Origin: Halogeometricum rufum
GTDB lineage: Archaea; Halobacteriota; Halobacteria; Halobacteriales; Haloferacaceae
DNA length: 64,000 nucleotides
Assembly: GCF_900112175.1 (NCBI RefSeq)
Contig: NZ_FOYT01000002.1
Coordinates: 992,001-1,056,000, forward strand
Direction of reading: 5' to 3'
The translations under genes were made by a program, and so were the position numbers. The notes below the pieces were generated by a model. The model was not told the DNA's origin. It worked only from the letters and a program-made list of their open reading frames with translations, and did no database searches. Shown here in pieces: positions 54,132 to 57,425 of this stretch (its first letter is position 1; the number at the start of each line of letters is the position of its first letter).

Positions 54132-55061
54132 TCACCGCTTCCCGCGGACCGTCGAGAACCCCGTCGATGAACCCATATCCGACCGCGAGGACGGGACCGT
54201 CGAGAACCGCGACGACCCGGCGGTAGACTGCATCCGGCCATCATCGTCGTCCTCGTCGTCTCCGAGCAACCCGTCGTCATCCTCGTCGTCGTCGTCCTCG
54301 TCGTCTCCGAGCAACTCATCGTCGTCTTCTTGCTCGTCGCCCTCGCTCGCCTCGTCGTCCGAGAACATCGCACGGAGGCGCTCGACGTGCTCTTCGAGTT
54401 CGACGAGTTCGTCGTCCTCGTCTCCCGTTCCGTCGTCGTCCGCGCCGTCCTCCTCGCCGTCGGCCGAGTCGTCGTCGGTCAACGAGTCGATGAATCCCTC
54501 GTCGTCGCCGCCCGACTCGCCGTCGTCGTCGGTCAGCGTGTCGACCAGTCCCGCGTCGTCGCCGCTCTCGCCGTCGTCTGCACCGCCGTCGGCGCTCTCG
54601 GCCGGCGCGCCGTCCGCCTCGTCCTCGTCGCCGAGGTGACCGAACTGGTCGAGGTACTCCTTCAGTTGCGCGAACCCGCCGTCGTCCTCGCTCTCTTCGC
54701 CGACGACGCGGTCCAGACGGTCGATTCGCTCCTCGTCGGAGAGGTCGGACCACGATTCGCCCATGTCGGCCAGTCGGAGGAGTCGCCGTAACTCGACTAT
54801 CGCGGCGGCGTCGGCGTCGCGAATCACCGCCGGGAGGTCCACCGGCGAGACGTCGTCCGGGACGTCGTCGAACCCGGCCGCGTCCAGCAGGTCCGCGACA
54901 GACGCCGACGAGACGGCCGACGCGAGTCGATCCGTCGACTCGCGGAGCGACTCGCGTTCCTCCTCGGGGAGCGATCCGTCCTCGCGTTCGGCGTCGGCGC
55001 TCTCAGCCGCCGTCGTGGCTTCTTCGAACGCGTCGCCGAGTTCCGTCTCCGTGTCCGTCAT
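54132..55061 (-). CDS. Very acidic protein with basic Ser-rich tail, fourth gene of the acidic operon
   Basis: A 309-residue protein with no family that I recognise. Residues about 25-120 form a helical domain (SLRESTDRLASAVSSASVADLLDAAGF, LRRLLRLADMGESWSDLSDEERIDRLDRVVG). Residues about 145-275 are low-complexity Asp/Glu/Gly tracts with repeated LLGDDEDDDDEDDDG units, interrupted by a short helix (LVELEEHVERLRAMFSDDE). The last 35 residues are basic and Ser/Thr-rich with two FSTV motifs (SSRFSTVPSSR, STGFSTVRGKR). It begins 15 bases after the preceding operon gene and converges with pepF. Confidence 0.75.
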   Translation of the reverse strand: MTDTETELGDAFEEATTAAESADAEREDGSLPEEERESLRESTDRLASAVSSASVADLLDAAGFDDVPDDVSPVDLPAVIRDADAAAIVELRRLLRLADMGESWSDLSDEERIDRLDRVVGEESEDDGGFAQLKEYLDQFGHLGDEDEADGAPAESADGGADDGESGDDAGLVDTLTDDDGESGGDDEGFIDSLTDDDSADGEEDGADDDGTGDEDDELVELEEHVERLRAMFSDDEASEGDEQEDDDELLGDDEDDDDEDDDGLLGDDEDDDDGRMQSTAGSSRFSTVPSSRSDMGSSTGFSTVRGKR

Positions 55062-55076
55062 GAGTGGCTCGGGGCG

Positions 55077-55778
55077 TTACTCCCCGTCGTCGTCTGCACC
55101 GTCTTCTGTCTCCGCCGCATCGAACTGCTCGACGATGGCGTCGACCATCTCGTCCTTCGGGAGGTTCGCCTTCACGTCGGACTCCTTGGCGATGGACTGG
55201 AGTTTCGAGTACTCCATCATCTCCAGTAGCTCGCGGTACGTCTCCTTGCGGAGTTCGTCCATCTGCCCCGACTGGAGCGCCTCGGCCGCCTCGCTGGCCT
55301 TCTCGCCGGCCGCGTCCGACGCGTCCTCGGCGGACGCTTTGGCGTCTTCGGCCGTCTCCTTCGCCTCGTCGGCCGCGTCCGTTGCCTCGTCGGACGCCTC
55401 GGCCGCCGCCTCTTTGGCGGCCTCCTGTCGCTCCTCCAGTCGGTCGATAGCCCCGCGGAGGGCGTCGCCGACCGGTTCCTTGAACTCCGGCTTCCGGAGC
55501 GTGCGTCCGACCGCGACGAGCAGCGACTTGGCGAACCGGGCCGACAGCGACGGGTCGTCGTCGTCCCAGAACGTCAGCTTCGACAGGAGCCAGTCGACGA
55601 GGCCGCGGCCGAGGGCGCGTCCGAGCGCCTCGCCCAGCGTCTCGCCGACGGACCGGCCGAGCGACTGCCCGTCGACGTCGTCCAGCACGTCGTCGTCGCC
55701 GGTCAGCACCGAACCGACGTCTATCTCGTCGACGACGTCGTTGGCGACGTCCGACGCCACGTTGGCGGTGTCGCTCAC
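55077..55778 (-). CDS. Glycine-zipper, Ala-rich coiled protein with SAP/Rho-N-like end, third gene of the acidic operon
   Basis: A 233-residue protein. Residues about 38-66 have a glycine-zipper-like helix (GRSVGETLGEALGRALGRGL) then WLLSKLTFW. Residues about 115-175 are Ala/Glu/Asp/Lys-rich (EAAAEASDEATDAADEAKE and so on), like LEA or coiled-coil linker sequence. Residues about 185-222 (LLEMMEYSKLQSIAKESDVK, then PKDEMVDAIVEQF) look like a SAP or Rho-N helix-extended-helix domain. The tail is acidic. No signal peptide is present. Its start overlaps the stop of the preceding gene by four bases. Confidence 0.75.
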   Translation of the reverse strand: MSDTANVASDVANDVVDEIDVGSVLTGDDDVLDDVDGQSLGRSVGETLGEALGRALGRGLVDWLLSKLTFWDDDDPSLSARFAKSLLVAVGRTLRKPEFKEPVGDALRGAIDRLEERQEAAKEAAAEASDEATDAADEAKETAEDAKASAEDASDAAGEKASEAAEALQSGQMDELRKETYRELLEMMEYSKLQSIAKESDVKANLPKDEMVDAIVEQFDAAETEDGADDDGE

Positions 55779-56131
55779 GACGCCTCACCTCCGTCGTCGG
55801 ACGACTCGTCGTCAGTTCCGTCCTCCGAGCCGTCGTCGTCCGCGGCGTCCGCTTCGCCGTCCGACGCCGAGTCGCCGCTCTCGCCCTCGGCGTCGTCGGT
55901 GTCGGCGTCGTCCTCCGACTCGTCACCGCCGGAGAGAAGCGGCTCGACGACCGTCGCACCGAGGGCGCCGCCGGCCCACGCGCCGAGACTGCGCCCGACG
56001 AACGCGCCGACGGCCTCGCCGGCCGTCGCGTCCTCGTCCTCGAACTCGTCGGCCAACGGCGTATCGGCGAACACCTCGGCGAAGTCCACGTTCTCGAACG
56101 CTCCCGCGACGCTCGGCGTCTCCTCGCTCAT
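55775..56131 (-). CDS. Short glycine-zipper acidic protein, second gene of the acidic operon
   Basis: A 118-residue protein. Residues 1-40 are amphipathic (GAFENVDFAEVFADTPLADEF). Residues about 42-68 form a Gly/Ala helix (AFVGRSLGAWAGGALGATVV) that resembles the GRSVGETLGEALG helix of the next protein. The remaining 45 residues are almost only Asp, Glu, Ser, Gly and Ala. It overlaps the previous gene by four bases (ATGA) and the following one by four bases, so translation is coupled across three genes. Confidence 0.75.
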   Translation of the reverse strand: MSEETPSVAGAFENVDFAEVFADTPLADEFEDEDATAGEAVGAFVGRSLGAWAGGALGATVVEPLLSGGDESEDDADTDDAEGESGDSASDGEADAADDDGSEDGTDDESSDDGGEAS

Positions 56132-56976
56132 GCTTCGGACCCGGACCCCGACTCGCCGCCGTCGTCGGAGTCTTCGAACATCTGCTCGACGAGTTCCTTC
56201 AGGACGGAGGTGAGAATCTCGTCGAACGGTACGTCGCCGAACGCCTCGCTCAGCGACTCCTTCACGGAGCCGGCCGCCTCGGAGACGCGGCTCTCGCCGT
56301 CTTCGCCCTCGCCCTCGCCGTCTTCACCCTCGCCCTCGCCGCCTTCACCGCTGCTGAGGAAGTCGCCGAAGAGGCCGCCCTCGCCGTCCTCGTCGGGCAT
56401 GATGCCCTCGAACAGGCTCCCGCCGAGGAGGTCCATCAGCAGCCCGCTGCCCCCGGAGCCGAGGAGTCCGGAGACGGCGTCGAGGAGGTTTCCGAGCAGG
56501 TTTCCGGGACCGCTGACCGCGGAGACGTCGAGCACGACTTCGTTCAGGTCGACTTCGAGGCCGAGGAGGTCGAGGAACAGCCCTTCGAGGTCGAGAAACA
56601 GGACTGTCGTTCCCTCGTCCTCTTCGTAGTCCCTCCCCTCGTCTTCGGACTCCGCCTCGGCGGCTTCTCCGTCCTCGGACTCGTCGGATTCGGCGCTCTC
56701 TTCGTCTTCTTCCGTCTCCGCCTCGTCCGCCGATTCCTCGTCTTCCGACTCCTCCTCCGCCGATTCCTCGTCTTCCGACTCCTCCTCCGCCGACTCTTCG
56801 GCGGACTCGGACTGGCCGTTGGACGCGGCGTCGCCGTCCTCTCCGCCGCTCTCCTCCTCTTGCTCGGCGGCCTGCGCCTCACCGCCGTCGGTGAGGATGC
56901 GGCACTCGTCGGGAGTCTGCAGTTGATTCGGCGCTTCGTCGACTCGCTCGTCGGACTGCGTAGACGCGTCAGTCAT
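56128..56976 (-). CDS. Acidic protein with GPGNLLGNLL module, first gene of the acidic operon
   Basis: A 282-residue protein. Residues about 30-125 are low-complexity Glu/Ser/Asp sequence, including two identical 10-residue units EEESEDEESA encoded by perfect 30-base repeats. Residues about 130-200 form a hydrophobic module: TVLFLDLEGLFLDLLGLEVD, then NEVVLDVSAVSGPGNLLGNL and LDAVSGLLG. The GPGNLLGNLL signature is one I recall from uncharacterised bacterial and archaeal proteins. The C-terminus (SVKESLSEAFGDVPFDEILTSVLKELVEQMF, residues about 234-265) is amphipathic helix. The ATG at 56976 is used; a TATA-like element lies near 57010-57017. Confidence 0.75.
   Translation of the reverse strand: MTDASTQSDERVDEAPNQLQTPDECRILTDGGEAQAAEQEEESGGEDGDAASNGQSESAEESAEEESEDEESAEEESEDEESADEAETEEDEESAESDESEDGEAAEAESEDEGRDYEEDEGTTVLFLDLEGLFLDLLGLEVDLNEVVLDVSAVSGPGNLLGNLLDAVSGLLGSGGSGLLMDLLGGSLFEGIMPDEDGEGGLFGDFLSSGEGGEGEGEDGEGEGEDGESRVSEAAGSVKESLSEAFGDVPFDEILTSVLKELVEQMFEDSDDGGESGSGSEA
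56731..56790. repeat. Two perfect 30-bp tandem repeats in the acidic operon
   Basis: The unit beginning cgattcctcgtcttccgact occurs at 56731-56760 and 56761-56790 without mismatch. On the coding strand it encodes EEESEDEESA. A degenerate third copy follows. Confidence 0.9.
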
Positions 56977-57236
56977 GGGTTCTCTTTTGCGATTCAAGTG
57001 GCCCACACTAAGCCATTCTGGCAGACAGGCCCCGAGAGTCACGTATTCTGGTGTTTCAGGCTCTGGCTGCTTTCTCCGAGGCTGTTATTTTACGAGAAAA
57101 TGAGTTCGATATTAATTCCGCTCGCGAACCGAGTCCTCCGGGAATGACGTGCTCGCTCCGTTGCGCGCGTCCAGTCGGGGTCAGTCCCCCCGCGGGTACC
57201 GACTTCGCTCCTCGCTGTCGCTCGGAGACGAAGAAG

Positions 57237-57311
57237 CGGGCCGGGAGGGACTTGAACCTCAGTCGCTTCGCTCACTCCGTTCGCTACGCTCCCTGGTTCA
57301 AGTCTCCCGTC
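57237..57311. repeat. tRNA-Lys 3'-end copy within an inverted repeat
   Basis: The 22 bases at 57237-57258 are identical to 57352-57373, the discriminator, acceptor 3' strand and T-arm part of tRNA-Lys. A reverse-oriented version (ggttcaagtctcccg at 57296-57310) forms an inverted repeat with it around a loop of cgcttcgctcactccgttcg-type sequence. From 56977 to 57351 no gene is seen. Confidence 0.8.
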
Positions 57312-57351
57312 GGAGGTACGACACCGCTCGCTGTCGCTCGCGGGTCTGTAA

Positions 57352-57425
<74 letters not shown>

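Follow-up and report, generated by a model that had tools for sequence, protein, structure and literature searches.

A four-gene operon as a candidate accessory module for gas vesicles in the GvpC-less gvp lineage of haloarchaea

Loss of the gas-vesicle protein GvpC results in weak vesicles, and loss of GvpI in very long ones; GvpI binds GvpH and GvpL, and oligomerizes GvpJ, GvpK and GvpM (PMC7688916, PMC9501494, PMC4390858). In Natrialba magadii, GvpI was earlier described as long, with an extension at its N-terminus (PMC3403918). There is also a gvp lineage without GvpC, whose described members are devoid of the regulators GvpD and GvpE as well (PMC4390858). The open-access literature describes these GvpC-less vac regions, and no mention of the locus examined here was found there. 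This locus, an operon of four genes (A–D), most likely encodes an accessory module for gas vesicles, not described before, that belongs to this GvpC-less gvp lineage of haloarchaea; its biochemical role is inferred.

The operon occupies positions 54132–56976 of a 64,000-nucleotide stretch of Halogeometricum rufum DNA (the window), where its ORFs were confirmed; all the genes and features described below are on the minus strand. Gene A (56128–56976, 282 aa), as delimited by its ORF and homologues, encodes an N-terminal Rx(L)TDGGE motif, a long acidic linker, a core with the sequence GPGNLLGNLL (a module already pointed out in the preliminary description, and indeed present) and a C-terminal amphipathic helix. 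On the basis of ORFs and alignments, gene B (55775–56131, 118 aa) encodes an NVDFxEVF..GTxLE motif, a putative glycine zipper and an acidic tail, and gene C (55077–55778, 233 aa) a putative glycine zipper, an Ala/Glu-rich coil and a SAP-like C-terminus. Gene D (54132–55061, 309 aa) was defined by its ORF and by profile comparison, which points to a GvpI paralogue with a polyacidic insert.

Three of the genes had been thought to overlap by ATGA. This is correct for A and B, which share these four bases, but the four-base overlap of B and C is GTGA, because C has a GTG start; the spacing of 15 bases between C and D was confirmed. The extreme acidity attributed to the four proteins was also verified: they rank as the top four among the 63 predicted proteins of the window, with an Asp plus Glu content of 27–36% vs a median of 18%. 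A Pfam and NCBIfam search with all four proteins returned only sub-threshold noise, and no cut-off was reached. Just upstream of gene A, window positions 57090–57425 contain a tRNA-Lys gene (57352–57425, minus strand) and, before it, a stretch that looks like partial copies of a tRNA.

The preliminary description proposed that the four genes form one unit and their products one assembly, and suggested examining their joint conservation across haloarchaea. The set is conserved, with A-B-C-D in this order at 59/74 named haloarchaeal loci (the fourth gene being D-like or GvpI-like) and A and B adjacent at 68/74. Homologues of A and C occur in largely the same genomes among the 60 related genomes searched; in 80 gvp-positive genomes, C is present in 43/48 of those with A and in 1/32 of those without it, and in all the 43 tested genomes containing both, a single contig carries A and C, 0.1–2.7 kb apart. 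These results support a single unit and the idea of one assembly, and neither the absence of a conserved set nor a match of the four proteins to four unrelated known families was found. In a phylum-wide sample, A was found only within the same order. Haladaptatus halobius contains three copies of A-B-C-D, on the plasmids unnamed5 and unnamed6 (L081, L082) and on the chromosome (L080). A Haladaptatus DNA match in the plasmid collection is annotated over the operon with hypothetical proteins only; no match was obtained when this collection was searched with the A protein. One locus of a gvp-positive genome, L184 (G217:C1:2096000-2115900), has B, C and D, but A was not recognized there and may have decayed.

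The distribution of A is tied to that of the gas-vesicle genes. Gene A is present in 130/391 Halobacteria genomes, and GvpA-family genes, which occur in 162/391 genomes overall, were found in 130/130 of the genomes with A (Fisher P = 1.7e-73 over 391 genomes, a statistic that ignores phylogeny). The association spans 40 genera and seven families and persists when genera are counted instead of genomes (40/40 vs 53/86, P = 1.6e-13, again ignoring phylogeny). In a smaller genome set, gvpA was present in 16/16 A-positive genomes. Four genomes of a single genus (G161, G219, G223 and G238; family f14, genus g41) contain 8–10 GvpA/J/M-family matches each, vs the usual three.

Gene order points in the same direction. 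At 15 of the 74 named loci, gvp genes lie within the same locus. The order A-B-gvpI-gvpJ was observed in Halocatena (L074, L076), YIM A00010 (L072) and SW_9_67_24 (L090). Halocatena and two further lineages show the longer order F-G-H-A-B-I-J-K-L-M, in which A and B are flanked by gvpH and gvpI, and the two genes have these neighbours at L050 as well. At L046, L047 and L103, A–D adjoin gvpA, gvpO or gvpM, and genes of the operon were found beside or inside gvp clusters in four genomes (G025, G039, G047 and G048). In the genome of the window, the cluster gvp M L K J I G F A O, whose gene identities were verified by Pfam and NCBIfam, is on another contig; operon and cluster are not linked in this genus, though they are in several others. 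Because the operon tracks gvp clusters in the genomes tested and yet is often unlinked to them, earlier accounts based on the clusters could have missed it.

The suggestion that the four proteins might form a membrane- or DNA-bound scaffold or condensate was not supported. Both their occurrence and their synteny indicate gas vesicles instead, as does the relationship of D to GvpI described below. That A–D are general high-salt acidic proteins, or such a scaffold, co-occurring with gvp genes by phylogeny and with no tie to the vesicles, would fit the lack of linkage in many genomes and the existence of the A core in secreted proteins; considering, however, the 130/130 co-occurrence in 40 genera and seven families, the insertion between gvpH and gvpI and the paralogy of D to GvpI, we regard this explanation as highly improbable.

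The domain of D at 54699–54965 is also found in the long GvpI of haloarchaea, in its N-terminal part: hhalign comparison of D with the gene found between gvpG/H and gvpJ gave a probability of 99% (E = 2.5e-18, 89 columns), and five column-shuffled controls gave nothing. The product of this long gene in turn matches the GvpI of classical clusters, which is short and basic, with E = 3.2e-17, and is therefore GvpI. The basic Ser/Thr-Pro tail of D (54135–54233, STVPSSRSDM..FSTV) is common to the GvpI tail as well (probability 95%, E = 4.4e-8 against long GvpI; more weakly, E = 8.9e-5, against classical short GvpI). The two FSTV motifs reported earlier in the basic tail of D are both present, and are those of a GvpI-type Ser/Thr-Pro tail. 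By these profile comparisons, D is a paralogue of GvpI. Searching PDB sequences with the D profile gave no match.

The similarity noted earlier between the glycine-zipper helices of the second and third proteins was substantiated. Profile–profile comparison of B with the N-terminal zipper segment of C gave a probability of 96% (E = 3.4e-9 over 67 columns), while five comparisons with shuffled columns gave E values of 0.17–0.95; on this evidence, the glycine-zipper-like modules in B and at the N-terminus of C are homologous. The helix of B (55946–56011) has invariant G42, G46, G50 and G54, that of C (55593–55661) invariant G45, G49, G53, R54 and G57, and the GxxxG spacing is invariant among the homologues of both. 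Only some homologues gave Pfam Gly-zipper matches, the best (E = 5e-4) being for one B homologue. As for the SAP/Rho-N-like fold proposed for the end of C, the segment concerned (LRKETYRELLEMMEYSKLQSIAKESDVKANLPKDEMVDAIVEQF, 55119–55256) is strongly conserved in the alignment (T180, Y190, Q194, A197, K198, A204 and N205 are invariant), but the assignment to SAP is weak, as Pfam SAP_new25 matched 1/12 C homologues, at E = 0.25. Matches of the C profile at L054:9223-10170 and L053:9316-9897, a ribosomal-protein-operon protein and another unrelated haloarchaeal protein, were rejected as C homologues, apparently having only the SAP-like segment in common with C.

The core of A (54 aa, 56443–56604) shows an alternating hydrophobic/acidic pattern, with 12 invariant residues in 62 aligned homologues, and was predicted by AlphaFold2 as a beta-hairpin followed by a helix, with moderate confidence (mean pLDDT 70). 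The full-length model was unusable (mean pLDDT 51), but residues 251–268 were predicted in it, with low confidence, as a helix; alignment of homologues delineates a conserved C-terminal helix (PFDEILTSVLKELVEQMF) at 56173–56229. The core was ruled out as a relative of GvpA by profile comparison (probability 0.1%), and neither Pfam nor profile comparison revealed homology to PF00741 (GvpA/J/M). The predicted hairpin-helix had no fold match among solved structures, the A-core profile no match in a PDB sequence search, and a literature search for the motif string found none.

The same core is present in bacterial proteins with signal peptides, from Salipaludibacillus and Caldilineaceae, whose loci (L094, L104, L116) contain no gvp genes in the vicinity. 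It also occurs in a haloarchaeal paralogue (L036, L037), the N-terminus of which is twin-arginine-like. The core therefore seems to be a module that is common to secreted proteins too, and its presence in bacterial proteins away from gvp genes implies that it is not in itself specific to gas vesicles. In the bacterial proteins (L104:6638-7225, L116:6635-7225 and L094:6662-7207), the GPGNLLGNLL core lies behind an N-terminal domain without a Pfam family. An A homologue of 621 aa in Halococcus (L101:5996-7861) has extra CarboxypepD_reg/Big_1 Ig-like domains.

With regard to GvpC, the Halo_GVPC family (PF05465) was found in 0/48 A-positive vs 15/32 A-negative gvp genomes (P = 8.5e-8, a statistic that ignores phylogeny), and GvpC was not found in the genus of the window. 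GvpN, considered as an alternative partner, is evenly spread (25/48 vs 17/32) and showed no association with A. This split, which GvpN does not share, could mean that A, together with B and C, coats the GvpA shell on its outside and strengthens it, as a substitute for GvpC in species lacking this protein. Such a function would suit a protein as large, acidic and amphipathic as A; two genera (g51, g56) hold both A-positive and A-negative genomes, and GvpI binds GvpC in split-GFP assays (PMC9501494). However, in a GvpF+GvpL tree the sampled GvpC clusters fall in one clade (support 0.99; two tips within it are not GvpC clusters). A–D are therefore markers of the rest of this tree, and their not occurring together with GvpC may be a matter of descent and not of replacement. 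Moreover, of the gvp genomes without A, about half have neither GvpC nor the A–D set, which is therefore not essential to the GvpC-less lineage; the sampled clusters of this kind are mostly scattered outside the classical clade, and are most simply explained as losses of A–D. Since, in addition, a Pfam search found no PF05465 repeat in any of A–D, a replacement of GvpC appears rather doubtful. A broader proposal, that of a second haloarchaeal gas-vesicle type in which the A–D complex instead of GvpC stabilizes the shell, and in which GvpC-less "vesicle-negative" species need the unlinked A–D genes, is likewise speculative, and we would not favour it.

A–D might also be a regulatory or chaperone module that controls the aggregation of GvpA/J/M or the expression of gvp genes without being part of the vesicle. 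In favour of this, D is related to GvpI, which oligomerizes GvpJ, GvpK and GvpM, and GvpH prevents the aggregation of GvpM (PMC7688916); a GvpH homologue is found near A–D in Haloarcula amylovorans (L086), and the regulators GvpD and GvpE are absent from the described members of the lineage (PMC4390858). On the other hand, no DNA-binding domain was found in A–D except for the weak SAP-like match in C, and we consider this possibility unlikely.

The strict dependence on gvp genes in the genomes tested, the conserved gene order, the insertion in or beside gvp clusters in several genera and the paralogy of D to GvpI are the reasons why we think it very probable that A–D are accessory proteins for gas-vesicle formation in the GvpC-lacking lineage. 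How they might act is a more tentative matter, on which our confidence falls somewhat short of even. The four proteins would form one complex, held together by the glycine-zipper helices in B and C, which probably pair with each other. Being a paralogue of GvpI, D would be expected to bind the GvpF–M accessory complex and to anchor A–D there, in the way that GvpI associates with GvpH and GvpL. The hairpin-helix predicted for A, which is amphipathic, would probably lie against the hydrophobic surfaces of GvpA, GvpJ and GvpM, and the assembled complex may help to nucleate, shape or limit the growing shell. The long acidic stretches would plausibly keep these parts soluble in high salt.

If this accessory role is correct, A–D would represent a concrete missing set to be added in the heterologous reconstitution of gas vesicles, as well as new parts for engineered vesicles, and D a second GvpI-like protein for comparison with GvpI itself.

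Compared with known systems, D resembles long haloarchaeal GvpI in its N-terminal domain and Ser/Thr-Pro tail, and differs from it in having a polyacidic insert and in ending with STVRGKR instead of the terminal R[LI]YG.R[LF] motif. It is the last gene of A-B-C-D, rather than lying between gvpH/G and gvpJ; because of this position and ending, and of the separate gvpI in the same genome, we classify D as a paralogue and not as GvpI. The predicted beta-hairpin and amphipathic helix of the A core recall b1-b2-a2 of GvpA, but the first helix is missing. The secreted bacterial and archaeal proteins with a LLGNLLCAVAGLLD-type core contain the same 54 residues; they carry a signal peptide and are encoded away from gvp genes, whereas A has long acidic linkers and no signal peptide. 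Like GvpC, A–D would be a large, non-hydrophobic accessory component, with a complementary phyletic pattern but without the GvpC repeat. Finally, the published gvp/vac clusters without gvpC and gvpDE are from Natrialba, Natrinema, Haladaptatus and Halopiger (PMC4390858, PMC3403918), and were described with 11 gvp genes, with no mention of the A–D locus in the papers searched; the operon occurs in genomes belonging to these genera, and so in the same lineage.
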